Source: Glandiceps talaboti
Taxonomy: Eukaryota > Hemichordata > Enteropneusta > Spengelidae
Direction: 5' to 3'
NCBI RefSeq assembly: GCF_964340395.1
Contig: NC_135552.1
Coordinates: 18,771,181 to 18,835,180 of the forward strand
DNA: 64,000 bases
Shown here in pieces: positions 2,592-63,410 of this stretch (within the stretch, counting starts at the first letter, position 1; each line of letters opens with the position of its first letter). A program made the translations under genes and the position numbers. Below the pieces are notes generated by a model, which searched no databases, had not been told where the DNA came from, and saw nothing but the letters and a program-made list of their open reading frames with translations.

Positions 2592-5500
2592 CTACATCAC
2601 TACACAACTTTTATTGAGTTTATTGCTGTCTGTAGACGACTGTAGTACTGTACTCTTCACTCTCACTTTATGATGTGACAAATCTCCTTCACTCTTCTTT
2701 CTCCTAAATGAGATAGTTTTGGAGTGTGGCAGTCCTTTCAGAGATTTGTGGAGACTCAGTTTTCCCAGTGATGCTAGAGTTGCTATTTCAAATACTTCTT
2801 TGACACTACTCCTGGAGTTCTTAGAGGAGCACTCTACAAATGCTGCAGCACCAATCCTTTGTGCAACTTGTATACCCTGAAAACAAAAACACAAAGAAAC
2901 GTGGTAAGGACGTGTCCATCGATTTACCAAAGAGGTCTTTAAGTACTCCCAATATTGTGAGAACTCTAGGTGTCACGATAAAATGTTCACATCTTGTTCA
3001 AAATTTGAATTTCAAAGTTAGACTTTTAAATGTAATTATGTCTTTGAAGGTAACTGCATTTTGGATGATAAACATATTACAATACAATTTGGCAATAACT
3101 ATAGACCTGTACACAAGTTACACTTTTCCTACTTTTTTGTCACAATTTGTTCTTTATTTTTCTGATGCAACAACATTTGTGTTATGATTTACTGTGTTCG
3201 CCCACATCATCACTTTAAAACCATCGCATGATTCACCCGATGCCCTCTTTATCACGATTCTAATCTTGTCTCGGTAGTTGAGAACTCAACTGATATTCAG
3301 AGAGAACAAAGAAGCGTTGTCATACATTGATGTGACCTATGACCTACGACACCTGGGAAAAGGTCATCTGATTCAAACATACTGGCATAAAAAAAAAAAA
3401 CGTTTTTAATTTCCTATTTTGTGCTATATCACTTATTAAAATTTATCATAGACATTTGTTTCCAATTACAAAGTTGCTAAGTTTCATACTGAATTTCCAA
3501 GTATTCAATGTATTTCTAGAAAGTTGTACATGTTGACGTTATATATGGCTAACTATCACATAAACAGTGGCATGGAGGGTGACGCGATGACATCACAGTC
3601 TGGCAATGAAAGCCATCCACTGAATCCAATCATTTGCATATCAGGTCTATGACGACATTGATATCACGACACACTGCCTCACCTTATTTAACAGTTAACA
3701 CTTTACGCTTCTGCGAACAGACTCAAGTTTATCTACGTCAAAATTATTTCCGCTAGCCTACAGCAGTAGAATTTGATGGTTTTTCCAAAAAAGTGTTAAT
3801 AAACTTAGTCATAAAGCAGAAAATAGGACACCGGTTGACTGACCCTACGATCACTCAATTTTTACAAAAATTCTTGTTTCACACTAAACACAGTAAATGT
3901 CTACTACTCAAAATATGCAAATTAATAAGCAAGTGTCGTAATCCACAACAAGCGACCTATCGGTCAGAATAGCTCCGCTGTTTTTTTTTTTAATTTAATT
4001 TTTTATTTTGGTGACATGTAGAAGTGGTTCAGGTCTTCACTATGCAGTTTTGTTTTAGCGATGCAATAAAGTGGTTAGTGGTTTCATATGATGTCTCACT
4101 ATAAAACACATTTTACACAGAAGTTGGTAATGTATTGTACTTTTATACCATAGTCACCATTTTATAACAAAAATCTACTGTTATGAAAAATTGCACAAAA
4201 TCTCAGAAAAAAATGACTGGGAAATGCACACAAGAAAAAGAAAAAAAGAGGATTTTGAGGTTGGCTATAAATAATTCCAGTGTCTTACAGCTGTAACCCT
4301 GGAAAATTTTAATGATGAATGAAATAAACTAGGGATCTAAAATAATTTTGAGGCAATTTGAATTTCAATTTTCTAACAAATTTACAAAGTCAACAACATT
4401 CAACTTGTACTAGTTGTGGTAGATATATATAGGGAAGAAATGTATTAATCGCCATCTTAGTTTCCGTACGGCGACAATTCAATCTCAAGTTAAGTACCCG
4501 GAAGAGAGTCATTCTCAGCCATACGTTACAGTGGTAACACTCGTTCATGTTCGGTTACCTTTCACAAAGAAAACACAACGAAGTGGTTGAAATGATCTTT
4601 TTTTTTATTTCTTTTCATCACAACAACAAAATCTGCGTGATTGATCAAAAGTGTTGTAAACTAAACCAGAAAGAATTATCGGACTGGCTAAACTTCCCGA
4701 TGAACTGGAGTAAGGTCCTACTACTTCCAAGTAAGCCTCGATAGTACTATAGTACGTGAGAAAATCGTCTCAAACTAGCGATACAACTTTCAAAATATAA
4801 CTTGACATGTCTTCATTTGTTAGAGTTATACAATTCAAGACGGGTTTTCACTCGAAAACAACAATTCTGTGAATAATGACACTCTGAACGCAGCGATTTC
4901 TCGGACGATGTTACCACTGTAACGTATGGCTGACAACGACTTGCTTCCGGGTTAGTCCCTCATGCATACGGGTGGATTGTCGGCGATTAATACATACATC
5001 GTCTGATATTTTAATTCACAGTATTTCTTGTGACCGGCGCCTGTCAGCAGACTCTGCCATTTTTTTCATCATTCCATTGTATTTAAACCTTGTACTTGAC
5101 ATTTCGCAATATTTATAATTCTCAACAAAATACCTCAACATGCCTCACTTCGCTCGTACTCAAAGCAGCCCCGCGCGGTATGATCACTGACACTGATGAC
5201 ATGATGAGAGAGAACCTTTTCGGATTTACATGTAAAACGGGGAAAGATACGCAAAACATAATGCAAAGTCTAAAGCCAAATTAAAGTTGTAATTATTTTA
5301 ATTATTTTTACTTGCCAAATATTTGCATTTTGGAAAGGCAAGACACGTTCATGTCGTTTAACTTTACATGTGAACTGTCGGCCATAACTTCAACCGCATG
5401 TCTGGCATGCCCTTCCTTACGCAAGTTGTCTGAATTCTGGTTCACTGTCATTCCAAATTGCACGACAATATAGAATTAACCACAAGTTACATGTTATCTG

Positions 5501-8500
5501 AAAACATCACACTTTTATAGTGGGTCTGAAGTGTGATTTTAGTGAGTACCAAGAACGTCCTGTGTTGATACTCAAGATGCTTGCTGTGGAAAATCGCTCG
5601 GTCAAATGAGGTCACCTTCAGCTTCTGGTCGAATCAGGATAGAGTATGCAAATGAGGATGTTGCGGACTGATTTGAAGTTTACAACCCTGTTTCGAACAA
5701 ACGCTTGTCATTTGGGCGCCCAATGCGTAGAATTATGACTATAGCACATATTACATTGCTTGTTTGACGTCAATAGTGTCTTTTGAAAAGTGGCAGTTTA
5801 CTTAAAGTCTCGTCGACTGATTTCCAATATGGCGTCGGTCATTATGCTCATTAACATATTCATTTTTTTTTCAAATTACAAAAAAAAAATCATAAAAAAT
5901 AAAAATGAGGATGTGCTGACTTGAAATTAACAAATCTGAGTAAGCTACCCCCTGCGCATCAACACGCCAGATATCAAAGCAATCTAATAAGAGGTTTTCA
6001 AGGAGTTGATGAAAATGACATTTTATGAAAAAAAATCATAAAAAATTGAAAATGGCACAGATCAACTTGGCATGAACAAATCTGAATAGCCTCCCCCCAG
6101 GGAACATGCACACCAAATATCGAAGAATTCCGACTGTCACTTCCGGAGTAGATAGTAAAAATATAAAAGTTTGACGGACACCTATGATTCACTCTACTCT
6201 CTATACCTCAATACCCACCTATACCTAAAGCTACGCTTTCAGCTTTCGCTGACAGCGGAGCTAAAAAGTGACTCCAAAATATGATATAATGTCATATTTA
6301 CAGCCATAAAGGTTTTACGAGATTTTATCAACTTCCGATATCAGTTACCAAACCTGAATAGATAAGTACCACCATTTTGAAATTTGTGTATGACAAGACA
6401 TCAAACTATATGATAACAATATGGCTGTGTATCTGACGTCAATATACTCCTAATAGGAAATCGCAGTCTGAAACCACTGGTGTATACGTGGCTGCTAATA
6501 AACAAATTCCTTACAGAAAAACGTAGACAGAAAGCTACTTGAAGTGCCTATAAAAGACTACAGTATGCCTGTAACATAACTCTGACTCCGATGATGACCA
6601 TTTACAATTCCTCCATACCAAACAGTATACATGCTACACTGATCCCGTTACAAGCATTTGTTAGCATTAAGTAAACTTGAAACACCTTTGACATTTGAGA
6701 GTCGTGATAGTATTCAACTCAGATGGTATCCATGACGATTACAATCTGTCTACTGTTTGTCTCTTATCACTGGCAAACTGTAGAGCTGTCGTGACTTTCA
6801 ACTAATTCTCACAGTCTATTCATCAACTCTCCAGTGATGGCAATGCAGTTTTTTTCCATTTAATGATTTTCTCACGTTTGTTTATGGAATGTTGAAAACT
6901 GGCTTAAGTGATAACACCGTTGAGAAAAGCCATTCACTTTTTAAGACTACAATGGTTCACAGACTATTGACATTGTAAAATATCTTACAGGAATATAGAC
7001 AAGATTGCATTTGGTGTTCCATGATTACTTAACGCTCAAAACCTATCAATTTCAAAATATTTTTTTCTGTACCAGCCTTCCTTATTAAAATATCACTACC
7101 AAAAACTTTCCAACAAAAATATTCCTAACACCAAACCATTTAACTTCGCCTTCTCAAAAACTAATGAGTATAAAACCTATGACATATGGGTGCCCAGAGA
7201 CTGCAGGCTATCTAGCATGACAATGTCATTCGAGACAGAATGTCGAGTCAGATAGTCAAACCTCTAGGCTAATGACACGATGGGTGATCTGTCCTTTTTA
7301 AAACAGACAAAACAAGGTGTTCAGTCCCTTAAATAGAAATCACCGATACTTACTCTGTCATGGGTGAGTGATATTTGTCTTTTCTTGGCAAGTTCTGTGA
7401 TGACGTGTATGTCGTTACGTAGATCAGATTTACAGCCAACAAGAATGACAGGGATACCAGCAGAACTGTAGTTTCTCACTTCTGGATACCACTGTGATTA
7501 AAAATCAAATATAAATATATTAATAATTAGTATTCAGGGCTTGAAATTAACTTTTTTCTTTGGTAGTCCTGGTAGACTGATTTCAGAAATTGGTAGCCCA
7601 AGGACTGTGACCTGTAGTCCCGAACTGAAAACAGATTTCCTTTTTTGGAATATGTGTTATTTAAATACTTTCATGTCCATAAATCGTCAATCCTCATCAC
7701 ATAATCAGTGGTAGCCTGAGTGGGCTACCATCAGAAATTACGGTAGTCCCATGACATGAATTTGGTAGTCTGTGGGCATGGGACTACTGTTATAATTTCA
7801 ACCCTGGTATTACATATATATACAACACAAATAATCAGGAAATAGTTGCTGTGGAAATACAAGCCCACCCTTCAAATAAGTTACACCCAATACATTCTGT
7901 GCTCAATAAATTGTTGAACTAAGATAACACTGTTGAGATTAAAATAAATGTACATCAAAAATTACTTTCCATACCCACAAATTCTATTACTAGCCCTATT
8001 TAAATCTACAATCTGTGTACTTTATAGATAAAATCATACTGTGAGGGTACAACATCCTAATGTGATGTTTTATAATGAAATAAAAATTGCTGATTAAAGT
8101 CACTAAAAAGTCAACTAGGCTGATTTGTATCTTCATAAGATTTTCAAAACATACAGACTTCAGTTTTTCGAGACATAAGGACTTCTGTTTTTCTGATAAC
8201 TTTTTTTTCACGAGTTGAGATCAAGAGGGTATGAAAACTTAAAATTTGTAGTACATCATTTTAGAAATGTTTGCGTCTTGTCTGCAAGGTTGATGCTGGT
8301 ACAGTACACCTTTAGCAATGGAATGTCACTCCGTACATTCCAGATATGTACTATAGTCTGTATAGAGTACACCTTTGGCAATGGAATGTCACTCCATACA
8401 TTCCAGATATATACAATGTATTAGGATAAACACAGCATTACTGGCTTATTAAGGAATTATACAGCATTGTTGGAGAGCTAACTAGACATTTTTCACTATT

Positions 8501-11500: not shown

Positions 11501-14500
11501 TACCATTTCATCAAGGTTGTGATATTTACATAGAAAAGTGTGAACACGAGGATAAAATTCATCCCCACTGCCTTGAGTCAGGATTTTTTCTTTGAAGTCT
11601 TTTAAGATTTTTAACAATGATCGACACTCAGCATCCTGGTATTACTGAGTAAACCCAGTAACCTTGCTAGGTACAGCCTTTGCGTAATTCCACAGATTTC
11701 AGAAATCTATGACATAATTAATCACCAATGTTTTCCAACCTTGAAAATTATTGATTTTCTCCTTCTTTTTAAAGAATTGTCAATGACAAATCATTGTAGT
11801 CCTTCCTTTCTACAGCATCCTTCCTTTTAAAATTCAATGAATTCCCTAAATCTTTGTCAACTTGTCATTTTCATGAAAACTATAGATGAGTCTACAAGTT
11901 GAGATCTAGTTGTTGTAATCAAGAAAACAATCTATTTCAATCTGTTATAATTAGTAAGACTTGACCAAATAAATTCAGTGACATCACTTATCTCCATTTA
12001 CAAACAACCCCGGAGGTGAAATCAATCAATCATTTTGTTACAATGTTACAACTCACCTTTGTCAGGACATTGTCCAATGATTCTGGTTGGCTGATTTCAT
12101 AACATATGATAGCGCAGTCACACTCCATATATGCCAATGGTCTCACTGTATCATACTGATCACAACCTACCAAAGATATAAAAGAACATGCAATATGAAT
12201 ACTAATGAGATCATATGAATACTAATGAGATTATATGAATACTAATGAGATCATATGAATACAAATGAAATGAAAAATGTTCTTTTGCTGATCTGTTCAA
12301 TTTTGTTAGCTCTACTATTCAAAAATTGGTATACACATGTAATTAAACGACCTGACAAACTACCACTCAATGTACATATAAATGAAGTCAGATGTGTTTC
12401 GGATTAAAATTCAGGTGTGAAAAAAAAAATTATTTTGCAGAGCTTATAAAAAAAGTTGGTATTAGACACAAAATTAATCCTATATATAATCCTCACGGTT
12501 TAACTGATAACATAACACTACTGTGAGAGCCTGGATTTAAAACCATGGATTTAAACCACATTTTTCATGACTTTCTTGAAGCACTGTAATCTAGAATTAT
12601 AACTCTTAATATGAATTCATTTACCAAGTAATATTGTTTTTTCTATGACTCGTTTATCTTAATGAAATGTGAAACAGCAACAAATCTGTAAAATACATGT
12701 ACTTTAAACTCTGCAAAAACACATTTAGCCAATTAATGTCATGTACCGTGGTCCAGGAATTACACACACAGTCACAGAAATCAACACACTGGGTTTGTCA
12801 GTCCTCGTCAATTTCATAATTACTATTTTCAATACTTGAAAGATACAATAGTTGGCTGTAGCTTTTGCTATACAGTGATACATGTAGCGATGTGTTTGTT
12901 TCCGTTTGAATATTTAAATCAGTTTTATGAATACAGCAATCTGTCACTACCTGCACAAGGACATTTATACATGATGTTGTATAACTCGACATATATTGTA
13001 CAGAACTGTAACAGTTCATTTTCAAGGGAAAAACATGCAATTCACTGCAAATAATACTGAGCAGAGAAAACACCACACAAAGTTCTGATATCATTACATT
13101 AAATTATGACTATACACAGATTATATTTCTGTGATACTAAATACCATATGATAAATGATAAAATTATACAAAATACTGTCTGTCTGCATCAAGCGTTTGC
13201 ACACCACAATCCAGGTACCTACCAACCTATATACATATTTAATATAATGACTATTTTGGTGTAAGCTGAAATAACTTTATTTATAATTTGAGCACTGCAT
13301 CAACTAGTTGTAATATGAATTGACAGCCGCTGATTCATCATTTAGTGGACTATTTTACATCAAAGGAGTCTATTTTCAACAAAAAAAAAAACAGAACTTC
13401 GCTGTTTTATCTACATTTCCCATTCTCTGTATTTTACATACCAATTTGTATTTTTCAGAATATGAGTAGTCGTCAAGGGGCACGTATTCGTGCAATCAGC
13501 GTAGTACAGTGTTCTGGCGAAATAGTCAGGAGTGGTATCAAATATAATAAACCATGACGTGTCTATTCAGAACTGCGACAACAACAAGGTAGTGACTCAA
13601 AACATACATGAATGGACCAATACAGAAAATCTACAATGACCCTCTCTGTGCTGTTCTTACACAAAGACACTTTCTCAATGACAATTCATTGCTATGGCAA
13701 CACATGACAATCATGCACACTTCTGAGTGAGTTTCAAAATGAAATATTCAAATATAAGTATTGTGCGTCATTGTTCACACACTACACAAAAGTGATGTGT
13801 TATTGTACAGGAAAGACACTTTTAACTGCAGCAGTCACCCAGAAGGGTTAGGAGAATTGAACATTTATTGTTCCATAGCATAGAACAATTACTAGCAAAT
13901 GGTTGGGAGAATTGAAAACTATCCTGTGGTTTAGTTTGGCAAAATACAATCCTGACATCTGTACAGTCAAAGAATCATTGGCTTTACACCATTATTGAAT
14001 AAAACTTCACTTTTAAGTATAAAACAATCTTTCGTATAATCTTTCGAACTGATATGAACGATACCTCCTGCACAAAACAAGACATGGTTGGCTAGGTACC
14101 GATAATCTAGGTAACGTTATTTTTGTCAGATGAACGACATCTCTATGTGTTTTATCTGATCATGCCAAAAAATAAGTGATAAATAAATGACTAGCTGAGT
14201 GGTTGCTGAGGACACAGGTGTGGACGATTGCTTGTATTAATGTAATGATACAAAGACAGTCTTTGTTCTAGCTTCTACTCTCCAACAAATTTAATGCGTT
14301 GCTCTACTTCATCATACAGTTCAAATAAAACGTGTTTACGTACTAAAAATGACACACACTCGATCACTACACGTCACAGACAGTTCTCAACTAGCTAATA
14401 GAACACTCGAAACAGGACCTTTTTGGGGGGTAACTTGGTGTCACTAAATTTGAAATTTCAGAGCTGTGTTCACGTTGAATTTCTTAATACCCAGACATTT

Positions 14501-20500: not shown

Positions 20501-21300
20501 AAAACCATGAAAAGAGATACACGACGTACGACAAATGTGTGTGTTACAACACCGGATCTACTGACTCATAGATGAACTTACCTGAGGTGTCCCAAAGTCC
20601 GATATGGATTCGATATTTTTCAACTTCAAGAGACATACTGTAGTTATCAAAGATGGTGGGACTATATACCTACAAAGGCAATACACAAATAAAAGTAAAT
20701 GTATAATCACCCAAACCCATCGGTGATGAAAACACACCAACTAGTGCTTCGACACTATATACACATCTCCTTTTCTGAAGTTCTAAAATCATTGGTGATG
20801 AAAATGATAGTCAGTTTACAAATAATTGAAATATACTGTATATTAGTATTGCAACTGCCGCTTTGCAAAATTCAATGCAAGAATACAGGATGAACTTTTG
20901 TACAAAAGCACATCGACAGTTAAGATTGTACACCGAGCGTTCCCTTTCTGATGTAAAATAGCTACATATGAACTCTCGACTAGACACGGTAAACATGTTA
21001 TGTTCTATACAGCACTCGCCTTCACACTGGAAAACGCGTACACTTCATACGCTCCTCACAGACAGCATTAAACAAATATAGTGTGCAGTTGCATACTATA
21101 CAACAAATTACTAAATACAAATGAAAAAAAGAAGGACGGAAGATCAAAACAACATATGAAATAAATTAAATTACCTCTGGAAAATATTCCTTGACGAGCA
21201 CATTCAGCAGTGCGCTCTTTCCACATCGCGAGTCCCCAACGAGAACGATTTTGCAGGCTGTGCGGTCCACAACCAAAGATCGTCGGTGTGCGATGTTCAT
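2592..21300 (-). CDS. RND: Rnd-family Rho GTPase (Rnd1/2/3-like), five coding exons, complete
   Basis: This is an atypical Rho GTPase that should act at membranes to weaken RhoA/ROCK signalling and loosen actin structures. Exons in coding order: 21175-21300, 20582-20669, 12057-12166, 7354-7491, 2592-2876. All junctions are GT-AG, and phases join to give 248 aa (human Rnd3 is about 244). Visible motifs are the P-loop GDSRCGKS (residues 22-29), switch [10 protein letters not shown] (44-52), WDTSG (68-72), GCKSD (127-131), ECSS (169-172) and a C-terminal CVVM box (245-248), which favours farnesylation. The WDTSG motif and the loss of Gln at the Ras-61 position are Rnd hallmarks and predict a GTP-locked protein without hydrolysis. 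The start is the first ATG of exon 1, just before the P-loop strand. I cannot say which of Rnd1, 2 or 3 it equals; a pre-duplication form is likely. The introns (1.9-8.4 kb) hold only repeats. Confidence 0.93.
4440..4995. mobile_element. MITE-like element with long imperfect terminal inverted repeats
   Basis: The left end reads ATGTATTAATCGCC and the right end is its reverse complement, GGCGATTAATACAT. Similarity continues inward: AGCCATACGTTACAGTGGTA near 4519 is matched inverted by TACCACTGTAACGTATGGCT near 4912, so the arms are about 100 bp and diverged. The centre has no transposase-like reading frame. The element sits in the last intron of the Rnd gene. Confidence 0.75.
5868..6262. mobile_element. 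Non-autonomous repeat with a 3' hairpin
   Basis: Two internal sub-repeats of a phrase of the type ACAAATCTGA(A/G)TA(A/G)GC...CC, then a body with ACCAAATATCGAAG, run into a terminal hairpin. Its arms are AGCTACGCTTTCAGC (6229-6243) and GCTGACAGCGGAGCT (6248-6262), 13 of 15 paired. A fragment AGCTCCGCTG at about 3970 looks like another copy of the end. The class is uncertain. Confidence 0.5.
7535..7806. mobile_element. CAGGG-ended MITE with target duplication GTATT
   Basis: The left end is CAGGGCTTGAAATTAAC. The right end, reversed, reads CAGGGTTGAAATTATAAC; both ends carry GGTAGTCC or GTAGTCC just inside. The 5-bp word GTATT directly flanks both ends (7530-7534 and 7807-7811), as expected for a target-site duplication. 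CAGGG ends recall hAT-type elements, which usually make 8-bp duplications, so the class is not settled. A second, truncated left end lies at 63224-63262. The element lies just upstream (in gene sense) of Rnd exon 4. Confidence 0.75.
8294..8412. repeat. Two-copy tandem duplication, about 68 bp
   Basis: AGTACACCTTTAGCAATGGA followed by ATGTCACTCCGTACATTCCAG is repeated 68 bp later with few changes (AGTACACCTTTGGCAATGGA). The duplication lies in an intron of the Rnd gene and has no coding signal. Confidence 0.8.
10002..10331. mobile_element. MITE-like element, about 330 bp
   Basis: The left arm CTTAAAGTGGCCATATGGAC (10002 onward) continues with GACAAATTG...ATTTATTTTGGATTTTT. The right arm, reversed from 10331, reads CTTAAAGTGGCCACATTGAT, then GACAAATTGGGATTTATTTTGG. 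The arms are about 48 bp. The interior is AT-rich and non-coding, with its own imperfect symmetry (TTGCAATTTATTGA against TCAATAAATTGCAA). It lies in the third intron of Rnd. Confidence 0.8.
12188..12262. repeat. 20-bp tandem repeat, about 3.5 copies
   Basis: The unit is close to ATATGAATACTAATGAGATC, repeated about three and a half times with single-base changes, roughly 20 bp upstream (in gene sense) of the Rnd exon 3 acceptor. Confidence 0.8.
18570..19120. repeat. 29-bp minisatellite (CTGCTATAGGGTTTATGTG type)
   Basis: The unit is about 29 bp: GCTGCTAATGGGTTTATGTG followed by ATCTAGTGT. The core array runs from about 18738, and degenerate units extend left to about 18570. Two variants alternate, one with CTAATGGG and one with CTATAGGG or CTGTGGGG, suggesting higher-order copying of unit blocks. 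It is intronic and has no coding function that I can see. Confidence 0.85.
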
Positions 21301-22240
21301 GTTTGTTCTTAAAATCACTGTAGATAGGTTTCCGAACGTTTATCTGTTTCCTTTACTCCAAGTCGAGCGAAAACATACTTTACTTGTAACCGTGTGATTC
21401 GTATAAATGCATGTGATATGAGGACGTTTGGATCACGATGAACTGATGAAAGCCTGTGTGAACTGACCAATTAGAGACCACTATTGTGTTATTTGCATAG
21501 TAATATTTACATTTGGACGCCCACTATTCCTTATATGGTTAGACGCATCATCTGCTATTTTGAGAACATTATATACATATCCTTCCTTGTTTTGATCATT
21601 TCGATTTTTATGTGATGATCCGATTTAGTAGCTCAATACATGTTAAAATTGTAAAGCGCTATGCTTTTTACGTGATGGCCATAACGTTGGGTTAGTTTTT
21701 ATCTCTCAAGTTGACCCAGGTCATGTACTTAAATCACGCATATAATGTAGTCATGACGATCATTATGGCGTGGCCGGGCATTCACCCCCATAAGGTCATA
21801 AGGTGGGACTAGATAGTCACATGACGTAAACGTGAGGGCGTAGTGCAGTGCTCGACTGGACGCGTAGAAACCGCAAATGTGCAACTAAACTGTACAATGC
21901 TAGCTATGAGCTCGGACATTTACATAGTATATGGAAGTACGGATTTTCTTTATAACGTCAAGTATCTTTATAACGTCAACTGTGGTTTAACTTTATATGT
22001 ATCGAAAAATAAATGGCCAACCAATACCTGTGCAAGTCTAGACTGCATGTTGTAACCCCTGAGAGCCCGAGAAGACATCTGTTATAATATAAACTCAAAA
22101 GAGTTTCATGGCTGGGCAAAAAATGGCCAATGAACCTTTGTACAAGGATGCAAGGGTTAATAGCTTATCGTAACATCACCGATGAATACAATAAAAGATT
22201 ACACTGTAACTACTGCAGTGTGACCACATCTAACAAAAGT
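21301..22240. promoter_or_regulatory. Shared upstream region of the divergent Rnd and VAT1 genes
   Basis: Only 940 bp separate the two start codons, which point away from each other, so both core promoters and 5' UTRs must lie here unless an upstream non-coding exon exists. Visible candidate elements are an octamer-like TTATTTGCATAG near 21489 and a CRE-like CATGACGTAAAC near 21820. No TATA box is clearly placed. That this is a bidirectional promoter is inference from geometry. Confidence 0.55.
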
Positions 22241-25200
22241 ATGTCTAAAACCATTGTGCTTACTGGGTTTAGTGGTTTTGATAAACTTCAAACACTCCAA
22301 TATGAAATACCACAACCAAAGAAAGGTGAAGTGCTGGTTGAAGTTAAAGCATGTGGGCTAAATTTTGCAGAAATCTCAGCTCGTCAGGGACTGTATGTTC
22401 CGATGCCAAAACTTCCACTGGTTATGGGACTGGAGTGTGCTGGTGTGATCTCGAAACTTGGTGAAGGGGTGACAGAACTAACGGTAAAGTGTATATTATA
22501 ATAGAAGAGATTTCAGTCAACAATTTTATCACAATACAATGTTTTGTAAATATATATTTCGTCAGTTTAGACAGCAACATTGTAATAATGGTGTCTATAT
22601 ACTTAATGGCATGGACTGGACCGGGCTGATTCTAGTTCACATACGTAATCTATCACGTGTCTGTACACATGTCTGTATTGTGGTCGATGCCCGTTTTTTC
22701 CAACGTGATTAGAACGCTTCAAGGGCGATAATGACTAGGTAATTCGGTCGAGTAATCAATCAATAGTTACAGACCTGTTTTCTCATCCCCGGACTCTACT
22801 CAATGTGCTCCCGTTATAGATAAATTGAACCTTGGTCACACATGTACAGTGTATGCATGTGAAAATGTTCTGTAACGAATGCAGAGTACATTAGCAGTAC
22901 GCGTATAATAGTATTTGCAAGTGAACAAAATAAGCTTAGTTAAAATGCTAGCGACTTTATTTGAATGATAATCTGTTCTCCCTATGCTCACTTGCTTTAC
23001 ATTTAGAAATATTTATAATATTGGACGGGGTTCCAACCTGAAATTAGACTGCTAAATAGTGTACTGGAAAATATACGAATTATCAGTTTCTTTCTCGCTA
23101 AATGTACATTACTTTACCTTTTTTAGTCTAGTTCCATGACGGACAGTACACACACTTTTACAAACAAACAAACAAACAAACAAACAAACAAACAAACAAA
23201 CAAAAAAGGGTGTATACTGTCCGTCATGGAACTAGACTAACTTTTTATGCCTTCAAAACTTCATCTTTCGATCATTGTTGTAGATAACAGTTAAACCTGA
23301 CTGGCTTCGAGGTATTTTATAAATTACGTTGTCACTATAATAAAATAGCCTACTACTATGCTGCAATCGGGGCATTTGTTTCTCATCAAATGACCGAAGA
23401 TACATACACTAAAAATTGATAAATTGCTTCTAAAAAGACATTGTATGTGTTAATTAGTGGTCAATATTATATCTATAGAGGTAGTGTAGTGGCAAGTTTA
23501 ATCTTGAGCGAAAGCTTGGTTTCAAATTTGTTATGTTACCATGTTACATTGGTTAAACGATACTAGTTGTAGGCCTAACTCCATGCTGGAGGTATTATTT
23601 TTCGATCAGAAAATCACACTACATTAACTGAAAATTGTTAAAAATGTACGTGTTAATCAGTGGTCAGTATTATCCATAATCAGTACAGAAACAGGTTGAA
23701 ATTGTGATCGCCGTCACGGTTGAGGGCGCTGATTTTTTGGGTCCGAACCCAATTTGATTCGATTTATTACGGCTAAAAATATGTTTACTCACAAGTGATG
23801 ATGTAAAACTGTGCTGTTCACTGTGTACGGTATTACGAGTTAGTTATTGTATCTAACAAAACATTTTCAAAAATGTTCCAGATATATGCAGTTAGTGCAG
23901 ATTCATCGTTTGTTACATGTTATCGGATGATTACAAAGTTATAAAGGAGCGCGCCAACAACGGCGAATAGTCTATGCAGATAAAGAAATCTACTCTCTTT
24001 AAAACATGATCTAGTCGACCTATTTCTGTTAACGTTGGTTTCCAAAACTTGTTAGATTTACTGTGTCGATTAGACTGACACCAGTCCCTTGTGATATTTT
24101 TAGTTTCATAATCTTCAAATATTTTCAATTTGTTATTCATTTTTTAGTAACGAAAAAATGTCCCCTACTTTGTTTTTTAATTTGTCCCAGTTACTAGTAG
24201 TCTCCCAAGGGTCATATGCAGTTACCCCACTGTTTTGCAATCACTAAGCCAGGTCATTATTTCACATAAAAAACACACTTGTGGGTTTTTTTTTTTAATT
24301 CTTCTTCAAATAAAGACTGAAAAAAACCCGAAAACTTTAGCAAGTCTAATGTTTACCTAATCATTACCTTGCCCTTTCTTGCCAAAGTATTTTACTCGTT
24401 GATGTAAGGGATTGGTATTTTCAAATTACCCCCCTCCCCTCCCGTCAACAATTCTTTATGATTTACACGAAATATCGTAATCAAAATTTGGAGACTCCTA
24501 AAAAGTCTACAGCGCCACCAAGCATGTTTTTATGGTTTCAGTTGGATATAAAAGTAGAAGTAATTTTTAATAAATTGTTGTTTAAATTTTAGCGAATTCG
24601 GGGCAATGAATTTTAATTAAAACTGTTTTTTAAGCCGAGAGATGTTTTACGGGGTAAACTTAAAATGGAACAAAGTTGTGTTCGTTGTAAGATTCTTTAA
24701 AGTTGTAGTATGATTCGTGTGAGGTTTTCTTTAAGGAAAACAACAATCTAATTATATGCAATAATACATGTCTCTTTGCGTCCACCTTCATTATCCACAG
24801 ACTGTACATAATTATTCTGTATGTGTAACAGCACATCGAATGTATATAATTCTTAATTGTGTAGCTAGCCCTCATCGGAGAGTGAGGCTTTAGGGACAAC
24901 TATTAAAAGGATCATATGGGAAGACAAAGAGCGAAGAACTCAGTAGTGCACCAAGTTTTACCACAAAGTTTACTATTTCAATAGAGGCCTACCATGTATG
25001 ATTGTGTTGTCATTTGAAATATACAATAATGCACACATGAAACCGCAATTATATTTTAGTATAGCAAATTTTAAATAAAGTCTGTATCTAGACTGTGTTG
25101 TTCAGTCATACCAGGCTTCTTGTGTGCTGAGTGATAGCATGGCACAGATGTCGTATCCTATAGACTAAGATAGGTTCTACAACCGGTTACAATGTACTTT

Positions 25201-28200
25201 GTGGGCGTAAACTCTAGGAATATCACTGTGGCGGAAAATGTACACCTGACCAACAGAGGGCGTCTGTCCTAATTTTTTTACGAAGATTGCAAGTGCCAAG
25301 TATATATACACATAGAGCTACATCATGCTTAATACATTTATACTCTGTGATGTGCAAATCAACCATAGTATAGTAATACGATGGAAACCTGAGCGAATTT
25401 AGCCTAATTTACATATTAAAGAACGGAACATCTTTAATTTAGAACTTTGCTGTTGTTTTATCTAATTTTGTTGTGTCTTTTTTTTCATTATAGGTTGGAA
25501 CGCGAGTAGCATGTCTTCATGAGTGGGGATTATGGTCAGAGTATGTAACATTACCAGCTGAGAACTGTTTTGCAATTCCTGATGAGATGACATTTGAAGA
25601 AGCAGCAGCTATTCCTGTTAATTACCTGACAGCATATCTAATGTTGTTTGATTTTGGTAATTTACGTCCTGGTAAAAGTGTCCTCATTCACATGGCAGCA
25701 GGTGAGTAACGGCCCTACTCCGATTCATTTACGTCCTGGTAAAAGTGTCCTCATTCACATGGCAGCAGGTGAGTAACGGCCCTACTCCGATTCATTTACG
25801 TCCTGGTAAAAGTGTCCTCATTCACATGGCAGCAGGTGAGTAACGGCCCTACTCCGATTTATTTACTACTGAACGTAAAAAAGTTATCGTTCATTAGAAA
25901 CACTACCAAATAACTTATAAGAAACCGAGAGGGAAATTTGTACAGTGTGAAACGGTGTGCAACTTATTTGTCATGACAATTTGTATTGTATTTGTAAAAT
26001 TGTTCCTGGTGGATATTTTTCCTTTCATATGTCATTTTCTGTATTCCAAATAAGTTACGGAGTTATCCGTATTCAGTATTCTACAATGGCTTGATTTTGA
26101 TATCATATCGACCTAGCTCTTTCAAAAATGTGTACGGTGACCCCAGATATCTTTTCTTGAGTTTTACCGAGAAAGGGATTGAGATTTCTAAAAAAAAAAA
26201 AAGTAAAAAAAAAAAAAAGTTAAATTTTAAGATTTTTATATCCGCGGTGCACACTACCTTAGTAATCATATACCTAATGTTTATACACCTTTAATATACT
26301 ATTCATTTCAGGTGGTGTTGGTTTTGCTGCAGCCCAGCTGTGTAAAACTGTACCTAAAGTTACAACATATGGAACGGCATCACAACACAAACATGACGCA
26401 ATCAGAGAGAATGGAATAACCCATCCCATTGATTACAGAACGCAAGATTATAAACAAGAAATACTTAAAATTGACCCAAAAGGTTTGTTTACCTTAGGTT
26501 AATAAATCAGTTATCAGAATATACTTGGATATACATGTATATGTCATAACACTCACATGATGATCGAGGCATACAATATACTATACCCATTATATAGCAA
26601 TGTTTGACCCGAAAGACACAGGTAGTTTAAAATGGGAATTACCGAAAACCACCTGTTGATTTCTTTGAACATAATAATATGTACTGTAAATCTGAAAAAC
26701 CTTAGACTGGTACAGTCGTTACTCTCATGTACTTATTTATTTGTGATGTTTTCTTATCAGTTTGCTAATCTAAAAACAATGAAATCTCGCGAGACAGCGA
26801 TATCTCGCATGATTGCGAAATATCGTTCATTCAGATGAAAACGCTGTTTCGCAATCATGCGAAGTCTCCCGAGATTTCATTTTTTAAATTTTTTACAAAG
26901 AAATTAATACATCAGAATGTCTATTTTATTGTAATACGTGGCCAATTTGAATATGATACCCATTTAGATATTGTTTCTTAGCAATGTGCAGGTGATCAAG
27001 TGTTTACTATCGTAACAGCTGTGAAAAAGATAAAGGTATCATTTCTCTCACCATCGCAAAAAATGTATACATTTATTTGTAATAGTTTGTGTTAGAGTAT
27101 ATTTGCGAAGCAAATTAATTTAATTTCTATCAGTATTTAATTATTTGAATAGATGAATGGATGAATGAATTGATCGATCGATTATGTATCGATCGATTGG
27201 CTTACAACCAATTTATATCATGTAAGGCCGTCAAAGAGAAATAAAACTTAGTTGATATACTACAAGTATGGAAAGAAATGACATGTTATAATTCATATGT
27301 TTATGTTTATGTTTCCCATCTACAGGTGTTGACATTGTACTTGATCCATTGAGTGGCAAAGACACGACGAAGGGATATCAATTACTTAAACCGATGGGCA
27401 AAATAATTACATACGGTAAATATACACATTTCAAGTTATAAATTGACAAAAGTTAGTTTTTGATTAACTTGTTATGGTTAATATAGTTGGTTGCCGATGG
27501 GCAATATTGTTGATCCAGATGGTCATCACTACTGGATAATCACTAATGGACGAGGGCGCTATAAAAGATATGGATGTCCTTCAAACGGTCTCTGTGGTAT
27601 AGACTAATGAATTTCAACTTATGTTTTAGACTAGACTTTATCTAACATGTCTGTGATGTGTACAGGTGGTGCTAATTTTATAAATGGTGAACGTCTTCAT
27701 TACTGGGCCATGTTCAAAAACTGGTGGAATATACCATCCTTTACTGGTATGAAGTTAATGGGTCATAACAAATCTATTAGTGGATTTCACGTCGCCAAGA
27801 TGACCAATGAGTTTGAACTCCTTGCCAACGCTTTTGACACGTTGATGCAAATGTTCAAAGATGGACAAATTAAACCAAAGATTGATTCAGTGTTCACATT
27901 TGAAAAGGTAGGTATATGTGTAGAGTATAGTAGAGTAGAGTAGAGTAGAGTAAAGTAGAGTAGAGTAGAGTAGAGTAGAGTAGAGTAGAGTAGAGTGGAG
28001 TAGAGTAGAGTAGAGTAGAGTAGGGTAGGGTAGAGTAGAGTAGAGTAGAGTAGAGTAGAGTAGAGTAGAGTAGAGTAGAGTAGAGTAAAATAGAATAGAA
28101 TAGAATAGAGTGGAGTAGAGTAGAATACAATACAATAGAATACAATACAATACAATACAATACAATACAATACAATACAATACAATACAATACAATACAA

Positions 28201-28944
28201 TACAATACAATACAATACAATACAATACAATACAATACAATAGAATACAATAGAATACAATAGAATACAATAGAATAGAATACAATAGAATACAATAGAA
28301 TAGAATGTGATATGTAATGCACAGGGGGGGGGGGGTTACTTAGCTGGGCAATGGTTACAGATGTACCTTAGTGGATTCAATTTAAAAGCTACAATGAATA
28401 AAAAAAACTAGAGATCAAAAGTTTATACTTCAGCCAGAAGCTAAGGGTCAAATGTTTACATTCTGCCAGAAAATAAGAGCTAAAGCCTCGGAGGAAATGG
28501 GGGGGGGGGGAATTAACAACTTGGAAACTACGTTGTCAAAATACGGGGTCAAAGTCGTACATGCATTCAAAGAGGGAGTCAAACCTCTACATAATGCTTA
28601 AATATAAAGTCAAAAGTCTACATGAGTCAAAAAGGGGGAGATTAAAACCGCGGACATGTGTAACCTTACTTTGTGAGTCCCCCCCCCCCCATGAATGTAC
28701 AGTATAATACAATGTAATGTAATGTAATGTAATGTAATGAAACAGAATGAGCTAGACATACTTGTGAATTTTATTTGGTTTGTTCTTATCCATAATCATA
28801 CAACTAGTGATAAATATATAATGTCGTTCTTTGGTTTTTAATTTACAGGTTGCTGATGCTATGAAGAAAATGTATGACAGAAAGAATGTTGGCAAAATTA
28901 TCTTAGTTCCTGGAATGGTACAAGAAACTAAAACAGAACAATAA
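22241..28944 (+). CDS. VAT1: VAT1 (synaptic vesicle membrane protein VAT-1) homologue, six exons, complete
   Basis: This is a member of the zinc-free quinone-oxidoreductase branch of the MDR superfamily. Vertebrate VAT1 is linked to vesicle membranes, lipid transfer and inhibition of mitochondrial fusion. Exons: 22241-22483, 25494-25701, 26312-26482, 27326-27415, 27666-27907, 28849-28944, all GT-AG and in phase, giving 349 aa (human VAT1 about 393, longer at the N-terminus). Visible: CGLNFAEISARQGLY in the GroES-like domain, TFEEAAAIPVNYLTAYLMLF, the cofactor loop HMAAGGVG (147-154), GVTHPIDYRT-like GITHPIDYRT, LLKPMGKIITYG, and a C-terminal FEKVADAMKKMYDRKNVGKI. There are no zinc-ligand cysteines. 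The reading frame is open upstream to an ATG at 22130; I prefer 22241 because homology starts at TIVLTGFSGFDKL. VAT1 and VAT1L are not separated by this evidence. A possible poly(A) signal is AATAAA at 29790-29795. Confidence 0.95.
23123..23240. mobile_element. Hairpin element with perfect 26-bp arms around (CAAA)n
   Basis: The arm at 23123-23148 begins TTAGTCTAGTTCCATGACGG and is matched exactly in reverse complement at 23215-23240. Between them lies (CAAA)n at about 23158-23205. It lies in the first intron of VAT1. The TAGTCTAGTTCC end recurs elsewhere in the window (48814, 48889, 50902, and inverted near 50988), so this is one member of a family. Confidence 0.8.
25661..25861 (+). repeat. 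67-bp triplication spanning the VAT1 exon 2 splice donor
   Basis: Three head-to-tail copies start at 25661, 25728 and 25795. Each holds the last 41 nt of exon 2 and the first 26 nt of the intron, including donor CAG|GTGAGTAA. Copies 1 and 2 are identical, and copy 3 differs by one base near its end (ATTTA for ATTCA), so the event is recent or an assembly error. The frame of the gene requires the first donor at 25702. Confidence 0.95.
26771..26885. mobile_element. Foldback element in VAT1 intron 3
   Basis: AATGAAATCTCGCGAGAC at the left pairs with GTCTCCCGAGATTTCATT at the right, and TCGCATGATTGCGAAA pairs with TTTCGCAATCATGCGA inside. The arms are about 45 bp and imperfect. The interior is too short for any gene. 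Confidence 0.75.
27921..28306. repeat. Compound pentanucleotide microsatellite (TAGAG)n to (TACAA)n
   Basis: The array starts about 13 nt after the exon 5 donor of VAT1. It runs as TAGAG units with scattered TAGGG and TAAAG variants, passes through TAGAA, and ends as about 30 TACAA/TAGAA units. It makes long meaningless ORFs of the LYCIV and TLLYS type on the minus strand. A run of G (28324-28334) follows. Length is likely to be polymorphic. Confidence 0.95.
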
Positions 28945-34877: not shown

Positions 34878-37800
34878 ATGTCGTATTTTGTAAATTTACT
34901 GCAATCGTTGCTGGTGCTAGTAATTTCAGAGGTAAGCTATATTCACTACAAATCAAAAAGCTCTAAGTTTAAAATGGATATTTAAGATAAAACAACCACA
35001 ATAATCAGTCACGTCCGACGCCTTTCCCTTTCTTTTGAGTCCACAGTGCAGTGTGGACATGTAATACATACAGCATCTGTTGAAAAATTTCCTCGCTAAA
35101 GCCATTTACCGCCGTCATATCGTTGTGTTTATCTTTGTGTATTTACTTTTTTATGGCTATCATAAGTCATCATTTTCGTCAAGAAGGGTATCTTTTTCAT
35201 CATAGGCGTAAACCCGTTTACGTACGTTTTTTACATAACATCCTGGTATGGCCTACGTTCTCCGATTTACCCTTTCTGAGTAGTGAGTAGTAATGACCCG
35301 CTATCACGTGAATATGATGATAATTTCACCCTTTCATTCCGGATATTCAAAGTTTTCCAGAGATACACGAAAGAGCGATGAACCAAAAACAAAATGGTTA
35401 TTGAAAAATAGATAAATATACAAGATATTATTACAGTAATTCCCAGTGAAAATATACACAATCTTGCATTGGTGGGTTCAGTTTGTAACAACGCCGGACC
35501 CAGCAAAGAACAAACAAACAATTCAACAACAAAAATATGTCAGCACATGAACAATAAAAGCAGCATATATCACATTCATGAAATGTAAACATCATTGTTC
35601 CTATGCAACAAATACTACAATAGATTTGTTCTTATAAATATTAATAAGTCACTAATTTACATATTTTTCCAATACATAACTAGTCGTCACCACTGCACCA
35701 TGTAAATTTGTGACTATACAGAAAAAAAATATGTATATGATGTAAAATATATTTTTACTTTTAGTTGAATTTTGTTCATTAGATTTTTGAAATTTGGAGA
35801 ATAACAAAGACTGCCATATGCTCTGAATAGCTAAGAAGATATATGCCTAGTCAAAAGATGGCTTGCAGGTGTAAATAATGAACAAGATGAATAAACTTTC
35901 AACTACGTACTTCTCTATAATCAAATGAAACATAAGTGTTTTCCATTTTTGGCAAGGTAGTAAAAGGTTATTCAAAATGGTATCTACATGTAAAATGTTT
36001 TTTTTTTTTAAACCAGAGGTATATATTTAAATGGAAAATTGAAATTCGATAATTGTAGCAATATATATATTACAGAAACACTTGGTACCACAGAAGTATT
36101 TGAATTTAGTCATATTGGTGGTATATTTTTGAAAGGAAGGCCTGTTATTTTGTAGTCTTTCCATCAAATAAAAATTTAATCTCACCATTCCGTAATATTT
36201 ACATTATATGACATGGCTGTAATAAAGCAATAACAGTCGATCGTGGAAGCATATGCAAGTGAGGTTACATGTAAGTCTGTAGCACACATTACATTGTATA
36301 CAGACAAAAAATCCATACCTCAGTTACGAGGCAATGCTTGTGATATTTTTAGACTGCAGCATTCCAAAAGGAACATTCAGTACAATATGATATATCAAAT
36401 AAAAAAAAAATAACCGTACTCTGTTCTCTTAATATGCAGTTCACACCTTGAACATTTGATAGTAGTAACTAAAGTGGTCTTGATACTGTCAAATTCATTA
36501 CACCTTGTCGAAACTTTAAAATTCTATGTTAATGATATTCTGACTGAGTTTAATATATTCGTACTTGATACGGTCACTTCACATACATATATATACTGTT
36601 TATTGGTGTGAATTTGTGTGTGTGTAGTACCACGCGCTTTGGAAATATAAGCTGACATTATATTAGAAGCTGTAACCATCCATAATATTCTTTCAGAGAT
36701 TAAAAATTAAATAAACAAATAACTAAAGCACACTTTGTAACTAAGATCCAGCCTTGTCTCTACTTATGTAAGCCTAGTTGAAGCTTGTACAAAACATGTA
36801 GTTACATAAAGTTGAAACAATGACAGATCTTGCTGTTTCAATCTAAACCTGCACTTTTGTCAGCTTTGTGGAATGTTATATATCATTTCCATAGAATCTA
36901 TTCTACCTTTGTTAATTTTCATAAATGAAAATATTGCATTGATATTCATAACATTATGTTCTTGTAATTGTAAAGATTTCATTTTGAAAACTTGATTCTG
37001 TGTTAAATGTTTTGAAATTGGCAAGTTATAGTAAAATAAAGTAAAAATAAATTTGAAAAATCTCTGTATGACAAGAGCACAAAACGTTTGCCTAGTTTGT
37101 TCAGGGGAGAGTGGGTGCAGTCTTGAAGTAAAACATGCAGTAGAGATGCAGACATTGTTTTGTAGAAACAGTTGAAAAGAAAGTATTTATTTTGTATTTC
37201 AGTGATAGAGCCAACTATCGCAGTAAATAGGAAACACTTCATACGTGTAAAACTCTGATATGTTTTTAAAAAAAACAAACCATACTTCTGTTTTAGTTAA
37301 GAATAAATCTCATGAACATGAATCATCCAGCAGTTTTGATAAGAAAGTGTAACATAATACACGTAGCTATAAAAAACGTTTAGTAACTGTGTACTCAACC
37401 GTGTAAAAATTGAAATTTCACTGGTAATGAAACATATAACGTTGACTCCTTTTTTTTTTTTTAAACTGTGTAGGTGTCTGCAGAATATTGTAGTGACTAT
37501 GGCCACAGGTGAGTGACATTACCGAGTAGTAACTATTAATTTTGAAATAAATGTTGGAGAGCAATAAAGTTGATAATCAGTCATTAATGATTTAGAGGAC
37601 ATGCTGATTAATAATTGTCTCTAGAGACTGGGTTATATTTATCATGTCTTTTTTTACTGTGTGTTTTATGGACCAGAACAGAATAATTAGGTTCAAAAGT
37701 GTGGCCTGTCATTTTCAAAGAGAAACTAAAATTTATGTACGCATACATATGTAAAGGTCAGGGACTGTGTTCTCTTGTATAGGTGTAGTGAGTTCATAAT

Positions 37801-40800
37801 ACAGTTGTGGCTATGAGTGAGTTTGATGTCCGGTATGAATGACAGTATTGACAGTATGAAATAGAAAATGTTGATTAGTGATAAAAAAAAAAAAAAAATT
37901 GTTTTTAGAGTATAACTGTAATCCTCTTTCTCCCAACTTGTCCTTTGTATAAACAAATACCTTTTAGGAGAGAGAGGATTAATTTCCAACTAAAATCATT
38001 TGAACCCAGTATAGACCCTCTACCAAGGGTGCCCAGCAAGGGAGGAAGGAGGGAAATGGCACATATTATTTATGTATTATATATATATCATTAATTATGT
38101 TTGTTCAGCAAAGGGAAATACAAATGACCTAAGGGGCCATGTCAATATGAGTCACAGTCTCACAGATGAGTAGTGATAAAACTGTTCTGTCCAGACTATT
38201 TTGGCTGAATAAAGAAAAGAATTGGGATGGCATAATTATATGTGTGCAAACATATAATATATGTAATATAGGAAAAAAACAAAAAAAATTTGTGATTTTG
38301 AGAGTTTTAAGTCATATTTTTAGCACCACAAAACCAGTGACGTAGACACATGAGTGTAGGATGACCAGGGTATAAACATCATATTTTCTGTTCAAAGGCG
38401 TACACCTTTGCTTGTGTGTAGTATAAATGATGTATATAAAGATAGGTATATCGACACCCAGGACAACTGACTCTGAGCAGTTACATGTAACAATTACTAC
38501 CGGTAGTAGTTTACTACAGCTGTTACAACAAATACAACATTGCGATATTGATAATCAAAATAAATCAGGAGAAATCTCAAAATAACACAGTATATAGGAA
38601 AGTGTAATTGACCAAAAGAAAGCAAATATGTCCAGCCAATATATGACTTGTCAAAAGACTCTGTCATAGTTGACTACTGAGTGGTGAAAGATGTGATTGG
38701 GAGTAAAAGATGTTGTTTTTTAAACGCTGACCGGCCATCAACACTTGTCATTTCAGTTGTTCACCACCAGAGTATTGCTGTAGTTACACATGTTGTAAAG
38801 CATACACCCACTACAGTTTTTGGAGTATGTGGTATTTCTGGTAAGTATACACTGTGTTTGCTAAGGTCTGGGAACCCTGGTAACACAAAACAGATGAATC
38901 TTAAAACTGGCATTGTTTCCCATATTTTATCATTTTAGTGGTGACCCCCCCCCCCCCCCCCAGTAAAATGACTGGGGCACTAGATTTTACCTACTAGATT
39001 TTACCTACTTTAATACCGCCCTAACGAAAACGGAGTACAGAATGTGTCTAACAAATACCAAATGAATGCGTACAAATATTTTAAAAATCGATGAGTAAGT
39101 TTATATCATCATATAAAAAGAAAGATGGTAATGTTTCTCAAATCAGTGTTTATCAGAACAGATGGGGACACACCCAGTCTATTTATAATTTGCTTGTAGG
39201 CACACAGTTTGAAATGTCAGTTGCTTGTAGTAGGTATGATTAATGAAGTAGTAACCACCTCAAAGGATGAACAATATGTTTTGATTATGCATATTAAATA
39301 ATCTCCTTTTTTAACCAGGCAAAAATTTATGATCATCGTTTAAATTTAGGAAGAAAGATCAAATTACCTCAGATATTGATAAAGTTTGAGTTGACACAAA
39401 CCATTGGAAAGATTAAATAGTAGTAGCTCCTTCACAAATGTAATTATTTATTTTGTTTTGTTTCAAAACTGTCCACCAAGATTTTAAAGTTGATACAACA
39501 TTGTAAATTGTTTAGTCTTCAAGGTTCAGTTGTGTCCAAGCCAAATAGTATGGCACTGACAGAACCAGTTGTTGCAGCTGGCATTCTACATTTATACTCT
39601 GCCTACAAGACATTGTAGTTCCCCAGCAGCTACAAATCTACACAATAAGGAAACACAAATTGTATTTATCTGATAGGGTACATTCTAAGCAATATGCCCT
39701 TAAATGAAAGGTCAACATATTTTTGTCGTAAGTCAGACTGATAAAGATAGGTTTTCTTGTGAGTCACCACAGACTAAAAAAAGGTGATAGATGAACCCCC
39801 AATTTGATGTCGTGTCAGTGATGTATCAAATTAACTGACTTTGTGATTGATTCTCGGCTAGTTAAGTTACATAGTTGCATAGAACACAATGACTTGTTTT
39901 ATATAGCTGAAACTAAAATCCAGGGACAGGTTTAAACTATTGAAAATGTATATTGTACACATTTGTACTGGATGTTAGTCAGTGAGATAACAACACTAAA
40001 TATCAGTACTGTGTAGCTAACCTGTTTTGAAGAGCTGAAGAGTTGAAAAATTATTATAATGTAGATGGAAAGTATGCAGCTGAAAGTAAAGTAAGAACTT
40101 ACTACATTTGTATAATGATAGGTTTAACTCCTTTGAGCAAGGCTATACTAGAATAGGACAGCATAGATTCCAGACTACATTACTTTTAGTAGGCACATAG
40201 CTATAGTGATGGTGGCACTTCCCTCCAGTGTAGTTAATTGACTTTAAACCCCAATGTTAGAATCCCATGGTCTTGGATTAGTACTATCTTATCAATGAAG
40301 CAATAACGATTACTTTGGTAAATAATACCATTCTTTGTTTCAGACCTCTAACTGACAACTGTGTTTCACACCAAAAATTTTTTGACATTGGTCTTTAACA
40401 CCAGTTTCTGTTCATTTCAGGTGTATCATAGTATTTGTCTTAATGGCATGTTTTGGAGGTTGTGGCTACTACAGACGTCGCCATCTGTTAGTACGAGGTC
40501 GTGGTCAACCAACTACAGTTGTATTTGCCTCTACACATCCAGCACAGACAGTTTCTTCACAAAATACACAGAATGTACAAATGCCACATGTTATAGAACG
40601 TCCTGTAGGTGATTTCCCTGCCCCACCACCATACAGTGAGGTAAGGATTTATGTTTTGCCATGAATTTACCGTGAATTTACATGGGTTAGGAAGCCAGTG
40701 AGGCTTTTAATGACCCCTTTATAATACTGTTCTGAGGTGGTTATCAATACAAGCCTTAAAATGACAAGTTGATGTAGGAACAATAACCACTTCTGGTAAA

Positions 40801-41754
40801 CTGTTTCAAATGTTTACAACACGTTGACTGAAAAAATCTGTATGATTATTTTGAAATGAAGTGTATTTGCTATTTTATTAATCACCAATATTGAGATAAT
40901 TATGTCTTTGAACATTTGTAGTGATTTTTGAAGGTTAGTGGATGTGGATGGAAATCTTGGTCTCATCAAGAAATAAGCTATTTCACAGAGACAAAGAAAT
41001 TGTGAAACATAACATTCAGATGTTATTTCCTGAAAATTTTCTTCATTCAGCCAAGGAAAATATGAGTGACCTAAGGGGCCTTTGTCACTATGAGTTGCTG
41101 GACAAATGGCCATGAGTATTTTCCAGCAGAGTAAAGAAAAATATTGGAGAATAACATAATTATACCAGCTCCAGTAATATCAAAGAAAAATTGGGAAAAG
41201 TAATGGCAATTTTGAACGTTTTGACTCATATTTCGAACATAGCAGAACCATTGATGTAGACATGCCTTGTTGTGACATAGAATGATCAGAGTATATATTC
41301 CATATTTTTTGTTCAACAAGCTTGTGCATGATATTAGACTAGCTATACTTTGTACCTCTACTTCTATAACAATTTGGTGTATACATTGTAAACAGTGAAA
41401 TTCAGATATCAAAAGTGACAGGATGTCTGTGAATGGATTCAATTTCCTTCTCCATTTCAGATTGTACAAACGAAACCTGTACACTATATTTTTGTCAACA
41501 CATTTATTTGTATCATCTTGTTTTAGGTAACATCCAAGCCTGATATGTATCCCAAGACAGACAGTATGGCTTCACCATATCCTCCAAGTTACCCTCCAGC
41601 AGGTTACTACCCCCCTCCCCAGCCACCACACTTCGGACAACAACCACAGCTGCCAACCTATGAAGCAACGATAAGCCAACCAGCTACAGCAGTATCAAGC
41701 AATACAACAGCACCACACAGTGATACTGGTAATAATACCATTGGAGTATCGTAA
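34878..41754 (+). CDS. VOPP1/WBP1-type single-pass membrane protein, five exons, complete
   Basis: Exons: 34878-34931, 37474-37508 (a 35-nt microexon), 38757-38840, 40421-40640, 41527-41754. All are GT-AG and in phase, giving 206 aa. Residues 1-21 form a signal peptide (LLQSLLVLVISEVSA, likely cut before EYC). A short cysteine-rich outer part follows (YCSDYGHSCSPPEYCC and CC at 42-43), then a membrane segment around residues 52-70 with WYFW, then YYRRR as stop-transfer. The cytosolic tail is rich in Pro, Ser and Thr, with PPPY at 126-129 and LPTY at 173-176, both WW-domain ligands. The layout CC-x-CC...WYFW...membrane...RRR...PPPY matches VOPP1, WBP1 and WBP1L, which bind WW proteins such as WWOX or NEDD4-type ligases at endosomes and Golgi. 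Which of these it equals is open; CYYR1/Shisa-like proteins are a less good fit. An in-frame upstream ATG at 34785 would bury the signal peptide, so I prefer 34878. Confidence 0.8.
38105..38420. repeat. Dispersed repeat copy A (GACCTAAGGGGCC family)
   Basis: Copy A begins TTCAGCAAAGGGAAATACAA, then ATGACCTAAGGGGCC, and ends around TCATATTTTCTGTTCAA. Copy B at 41045-41345 follows the same order (ATGAGTGACCTAAGGGGCC, then GAATAACATAATTATA, ATGTAGACATG, CATATTTTTTGTTCAAC). The copies are diverged and lie in two different introns of the VOPP1-like gene. Confidence 0.65.
38862..39010. repeat. Second locus of the GGGAACCCTGG repeat
   Basis: GCTAAGGTCTGGGAACCCTG, a run of C (38945-38960), GTAAAATGACTGGGGCACTA and a doubled ACTAGATTTTACCT match the family at 330-740. 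It starts 21 bp after the donor of the exon ending at 38840. Confidence 0.65.
41045..41345. repeat. Dispersed repeat copy B (GACCTAAGGGGCC family)
   Basis: This is the partner of 38105-38420, in the same orientation about 2.9 kb away, in the intron before the last exon. Shared landmarks are GTGACCTAAGGGGCC, CATAATTATA, a stretch like TTTGA(A/G)(A/C)GTTTT(A/G)A(C/G)TCATATTT, and TTTTTTGTTCAA. A 137-codon minus-strand ORF overlapping it is not supported as a gene. Confidence 0.65.

Positions 41755-47304: not shown

Positions 47305-63410
<16,106 letters not shown>

Follow-up and report, generated by a model that had tools for sequence, protein, structure and literature searches.

Introduction

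Rnd and VAT1 genes are listed next to each other in two vertebrates. In human, the published gene order is VAT1, RND2, the BRCA1 pseudogene and BRCA1 (PMC3207938), and in chicken IFI35, VAT1 and RND2 stand at the end of an interval of chromosome 27 (PMC7240924). Both lists give the order of the genes rather than their orientation or the gap between them. We take the human pair to be divergent, with a gap of about 2.9 kb, on chromosome 17. Literature searches for RND2 and VAT1 together with synteny found no paper, with supplementary tables, which may well list the pair, lying outside the search. VAT1 with microsynteny returned only a paper on a plant gene, and a bidirectional arrangement of VAT1 and RND2 returned nothing of use.

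Beyond the vertebrates, Rnd has been listed for three bivalves and amphioxus in a survey (PMC4669188) whose entries for sea urchin, Ciona, Drosophila, C. elegans and the cnidarians included contain no Rnd; Rnd has been reported in cnidarians in another source (PMC7600811). On the scale of whole genomes, 256 new microsyntenic blocks are attributed to the bilaterian ancestor (PMC8851819).

Here, we describe a locus in the hemichordate Glandiceps talaboti in which Rnd and VAT1 stand head to head, with a SMARCD gene further along. It most likely represents an ancient divergent pair that is unlinked to Hox in this animal; Rnd and SMARCD branch off ahead of the duplications that took place in vertebrates.

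Gene content of the window

The window, meaning the whole 64-kb stretch of DNA that was analysed, corresponds to C5:18771181-18835180 in the genome assembly that we searched, which comprises 590 Mb in 47 contigs. Exons were located with human proteins, splice sites were read, and the exons were joined into spliced models. Four animal genes could be identified in this way, namely Rnd, VAT1, a partial gene of the WBP1/VOPP1 family, and SMARCD. All 21 introns of the four gene models (4+5+3+9) have GT and AG ends, and none of the spliced models contains an internal stop.

Rnd occupies 2592..21300 on the minus strand, from the start codon at 21300 to the stop at 2592. The model encodes 248 aa in five exons (21175-21300, 20582-20669, 12057-12166, 7354-7491 and 2592-2876), and one of its introns is 8.4 kb long. 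VAT1 lies on the plus strand at 22241..28944, with the start codon at 22241 and the stop at 28944, and encodes 349 aa in six exons (22241-22483, 25494-25701, 26312-26482, 27326-27415, 27666-27907 and 28849-28944). The partial WBP1/VOPP1-family gene, whose start was not found, follows on the plus strand between VAT1 and SMARCD (37474..41754; exons 37474-37508, 38757-38840, 40421-40640 and 41527-41754). SMARCD (BAF60) occupies 47305..63410 on the minus strand, with the stop at 47305. Ten exons were modelled (63295-63410, 62798-62972, 60690-60812, 59504-59617, 58477-58578, 52948-53109, 52072-52224, 49328-49408, 48618-48740 and 47305-47460). The first modelled exon begins at 63410, and an N-terminal exon was not found within the window.

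An earlier note on this DNA had placed Rnd and VAT1 in divergent orientation 940 bp apart and SMARCD about 18 kb beyond VAT1. These coordinates and distances are right: the start codons of the two intact models, at 21300 on the minus strand and 22241 on the plus strand, enclose a divergent interval of 940 bp (21301..22240), a candidate shared promoter region, and the SMARCD stop lies 18.4 kb past the VAT1 stop.

The remainder of the window was scanned as well. Ten other open reading frames, drawn from the 78 in the window that are at least 80 aa long, were compared with Pfam; none reached the cut-off, and one gave a sub-threshold match (Kei1, 16.4 bits). A codon-usage scan found no further exons, although it is insensitive and recovered only 7 of 25 known training exons. 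There was no Rfam match in the window. Large simple and satellite-like arrays are located at 27920-28306, 47654-47968, 52387-52745 and 55181-55903, and are built from a 5-bp unit (GTAGA/AATAC, just after VAT1 exon 5), from TATG and TG, from a 66-bp unit, and from a 58-bp unit. The highest CpG observed/expected ratio of the window (up to 1.5) is found at 50361-51820, inside a SMARCD intron, where two open reading frames gave no Pfam match.

Identity of the Rnd gene

The Rnd model matches the Pfam Ras family with 135 bits, and the closest PDB structures are RND3 (208 bits), followed by RND1 (182) and RhoA (181). In a 13-row tree with Rho-family rows, the window protein groups with human RND1-3 with a support of 100/99, rather than with Rho, Rac, Cdc42 or RhoD/F, and branches outside the human RND1-3 clade (96/95). 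The comparison sequences in this and the following trees were entered by hand, with the exception of the PDB rows. The best eight Ras-family loci retrieved from the genome appeared by eye to be Ras/Rab-like, not Rho, and were set aside.

The sequence motifs agree with this placement. Typical Rho proteins carry the motif DTAGQ, and the loss of its Gln is a mark of Rnd; the window protein has DTSGC at residues 69-73 and lacks the catalytic Gln of switch II. A CAAX box ending in Met is typical of Rnd, and the CAAX-type C-terminus of the window protein is CVVM. Furthermore, its G4 box reads GCKSD, with the Cys that is described as common to all Rnd (PMC7600811). By grouping, motifs and C-terminus, the gene is a member of the Rnd subfamily, and its product is predicted to be of the GTPase-deficient type within the Rho family.

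VAT1 and its relatives in the genome

Both dehydrogenase halves known from Pfam are matched by the VAT1 model. Among PDB entries, human VAT1 matches with 433 bits and VAT1L with 325 bits, and the identity is 55.3% to human VAT1 as against 45.0% to VAT1L. In four trees the window protein groups with human VAT1, not VAT1L (91/95, 88/97, 88/98 and 87/92). These supports are fair and stay below the starred threshold, the outgroup branches are long, and in one tree the two VAT1L rows were unresolved. Judged from these protein comparisons, the gene is, with fair support, VAT1 rather than VAT1L.

A VAT1L-like gene is present at C8:2771595-2783775; over 283 residues its identity is 60.4% to human VAT1L, as against 49.1% to VAT1. 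Due to the presence of this gene, the split between VAT1 and VAT1L most likely predates the separation of this lineage from the vertebrates, and an origin of VAT1L in the vertebrate duplications was rejected.

A second copy of VAT1 is located on the same contig as the window (C5:17533563-17541982), 1.26 Mb from the window copy. In the 40 kb searched around it, which extend roughly 23 kb ahead of the gene and 8 kb past it, we found no convincing Rnd match, the only candidate being a match of 41 aa with an E-value of 0.17. VAT1 can therefore exist without Rnd beside it. The two copies share a stretch of 269 bp with 100% identity (window 25524-25792; C5:17535993-17536261). At the protein level, they are 72% identical in exon 1, 55% in exon 5, 56% in exon 6 and 87% in exons 3 and 4. 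Perfect identity over 269 bp amid lower exon identities suggests recent gene conversion between the two copies. The end of VAT1 exon 2, together with its splice donor, recurs in about three tandem copies of a 67-bp unit (25660-25866). No VAT1 match was obtained in the viral contigs scanned.

SMARCD and the WBP1/VOPP1-family gene

The SMARCD model contains a SWIB domain (Pfam, 81.5 bits). In a five-row tree, SMARCD1-3 are split from the window protein and Drosophila Bap60 with a support of 99/98. As judged from domain and tree, the predicted product is a SMARCD (BAF60) protein outside the SMARCD1/2/3 clade. Both Rnd and SMARCD thus fall outside the human trios, the position to be expected if they separated ahead of the vertebrate genome duplications that gave rise to RND1/2/3 and SMARCD1/2/3.

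The fourth gene matches the Pfam family WBP-1 (PF11669) with 26.5 bits, just below the curated cut-off of 28.1. Aligned with the two human proteins compared, it scores nearly the same against VOPP1 (132) as against WBP1L (134). Since these scores do not tell the two apart, the name VOPP1 is too specific; we dropped it as a secure name and assign the gene to the WBP1/VOPP1 family only. With that, the use of VOPP1 as a chromosome-7 marker, as first proposed for this locus, falls away.

The Rnd-VAT1 pair and its intergenic interval

The Rnd-VAT1 arrangement is most likely a deeply conserved, ancient pair. It is probably more than half a billion years old, because the two genes are neighbours here and apparently also in human and chicken. 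The head-to-head arrangement would have been inherited from the common ancestor with the vertebrates, and VAT1 would then have stayed beside RND2 after the vertebrate duplications, as in human.

To what extent the interval between the genes accounts for this persistence can be judged from several features. Bidirectional promoters are recognized where divergent genes start within about 1 kb of each other; here, the start codons are separated by 940 bp. The CpG observed/expected ratio is 0.977 in the interval versus 0.517 in the whole window. This value is equalled or exceeded by 366 of 3154 sliding 940-bp windows, and the idea of an outstanding CpG island was dropped. Of the ten motifs counted, the CArG-box consensus, an SRF-type candidate site, occurs once in the interval (CCTTATATGG, 21529..21538) against 0.05 expected, and 4.8% of 500 dinucleotide shuffles contain as many; the whole window contains four. 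CRE half-sites number 4 versus 1.5 expected (8% of shuffles), and TATA-like words 8 versus 3.1 expected (0.8% of shuffles), all three percentages being uncorrected for the ten motifs. For each of the remaining seven motifs, this share was at least 12% of shuffles. A link between SRF and VAT1 was rejected, given the single weak CArG site and a literature search on VAT1 with SRF and CArG that gave only an unrelated paper.

Mechanistically, the interval would carry regulatory sequence needed by both genes, either as a two-way promoter or as closely spaced elements, and the pair would most likely be held together because this short interval carries shared regulatory sequence. A conserved shared promoter is plausible. 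The main alternative, to which we give somewhat less than an even chance, is that the genes have stayed adjacent simply because rearrangement is slow, with no regulatory cause behind it. Such passive retention would fit the weakness of the motif and CpG signals, and whether constraint or low recombination underlies microsynteny is presented as still undecided in PMC8851819. Against it stand the shortness of the gap, 940 bp in surroundings where an intron of Rnd spans 8.4 kb, and the fact that the pair has been kept, yet the WBP1/VOPP1-family gene is absent from the listed chicken neighbours. A shared regulatory interval is our preferred reason for the persistence of the pair, with passive retention of roughly equal probability.

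Position of the block relative to Hox

For human, we take RND2 and VAT1 to lie at 17q21, SMARCD2 on 17q, RND1 and SMARCD1 at 12q13, RND3 on 2q, and SMARCD3 and VOPP1 on chromosome 7, all of them presumably Hox-bearing chromosomes. RND and SMARCD copies coincide on two human chromosomes, and with these positions and gene counts it is only moderately unlikely by chance that they share two or more (P ~0.04). From this map, the block could be read as a remnant of the ancestral linkage group that carried Hox, sharing a chromosome with Hox in the bilaterian ancestor. The argument for it is that the human RND and SMARCD copies are found on the Hox chromosomes 2, 7, 12 and 17. Based on gene counts, six random loci would all fall on these four with P ~1e-4, a post hoc value.

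A search of the genome for Antp-type homeodomains speaks against this reading. It gave 38 matches, 11 on C20, 3 on C9 and 24 on other contigs, with none on C5. The matches on C20 form a Hox cluster at C20:18203031-18676316, in which ten of the 11 homeoboxes stand on one strand in a row, and those on C9 a ParaHox-like trio at C9:10559069-10649819. We read the C20 homeodomains as Hox1 to Hox8-like plus three posterior-type genes, and the C9 homeodomains as the ParaHox trio. The C20 cluster is single and apparently ordered, with the last posterior gene inverted; an inversion of Hox13b and Hox13c has been described in a hemichordate cluster (PMC11175523). The Hox content points to an ambulacrarian, perhaps a hemichordate. 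With the window on C5 and Hox on C20, the block lies off the Hox chromosome in Glandiceps talaboti, and membership of a Hox-bearing chromosome, as suggested in the earlier note, does not hold for this species. Of that first interpretation, the orthology of Rnd and VAT1 to the human pair, the positions of Rnd and SMARCD outside the human trios, and the antiquity of the pair are retained, while the Hox chromosome and VOPP1 are not.

The published karyotype history provides another origin for the human linkage. Chordate linkage group B carries the Hox clusters and is reported to have three counterparts among the amphioxus chromosomes, each of which matches a scallop chromosome of its own; these three units are reported to have fused before the vertebrates (PMC7269912). 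The bilaterian Hox cluster itself has been inferred on ALG B2 (PMC11175523). Due to this fusion, genes that are linked to Hox in humans can derive from the other two units, and the linkage of RND with Hox in humans can be secondary. The vertebrate Hox link of the block would thus most likely have arisen by a pre-vertebrate fusion of ancestral linkage groups, and a Hox-bearing ancestral position of the block is improbable. A literature search linking SMARCD, RND, Hox and paralogon found only an unrelated paper.

Discussion

That Rnd and VAT1 came together independently in this lineage and in the vertebrates is very improbable, since the same two families would have to become immediate divergent neighbours twice, for which order-of-magnitude arithmetic (~1/(2 x 20,000) for each oriented pair, multiplied by the few pairs considered) gives a chance of ~1e-4 or less. 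Taken as a whole, the explanation that we favor, an orthologous pair whose arrangement was inherited and kept by its regulatory interval, in a block off the Hox chromosome, appears likely to us. A more far-reaching version is possible but doubtful: the pair may be of bilaterian or older age, its interval may have acted as one two-way promoter ever since, and it may have belonged to an ancestral linkage group without Hox, whose fusion with the Hox group took place only before the vertebrates arose. If true, a two-way promoter would couple a predicted always-on anti-Rho GTPase to a vesicle or membrane oxidoreductase.

The locus adds a specific pair to the deeply conserved gene neighbours of animals, with the human relation of each partner checked by trees, and its small interval of 940 bp is a candidate for a promoter maintained over more than 500 million years. 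It also calls for caution, because the same genes lie here off the chromosome with an apparently ordered Hox cluster: genes that share human Hox chromosomes need not be ancestrally Hox-linked.

Compared with VAT1-RND2 in human and chicken (chromosomes 17 and 27, respectively), the window holds the same two orthologous families, consecutive as in the listed vertebrate orders. It differs in that its Rnd partner stands outside RND1/2/3 and in that the gap is 940 bp versus ~2.9 kb in human, and its four identified genes do not include other vertebrate neighbours such as BRCA1 and IFI35. With the Rnd proteins described from invertebrates (PMC4669188, PMC7600811), the window protein shares the atypical Rho subfamily and the G4 Cys; Rnd is present in this genome, whereas none is listed for sea urchin in Table 2 of PMC4669188. 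Finally, the conserved metazoan microsyntenic blocks of PMC8851819 resemble the pair in that local gene order is kept across distant animals. Those blocks, as defined there, comprise three or more genes, whereas the case described here consists of two divergent genes that lie a short distance apart.
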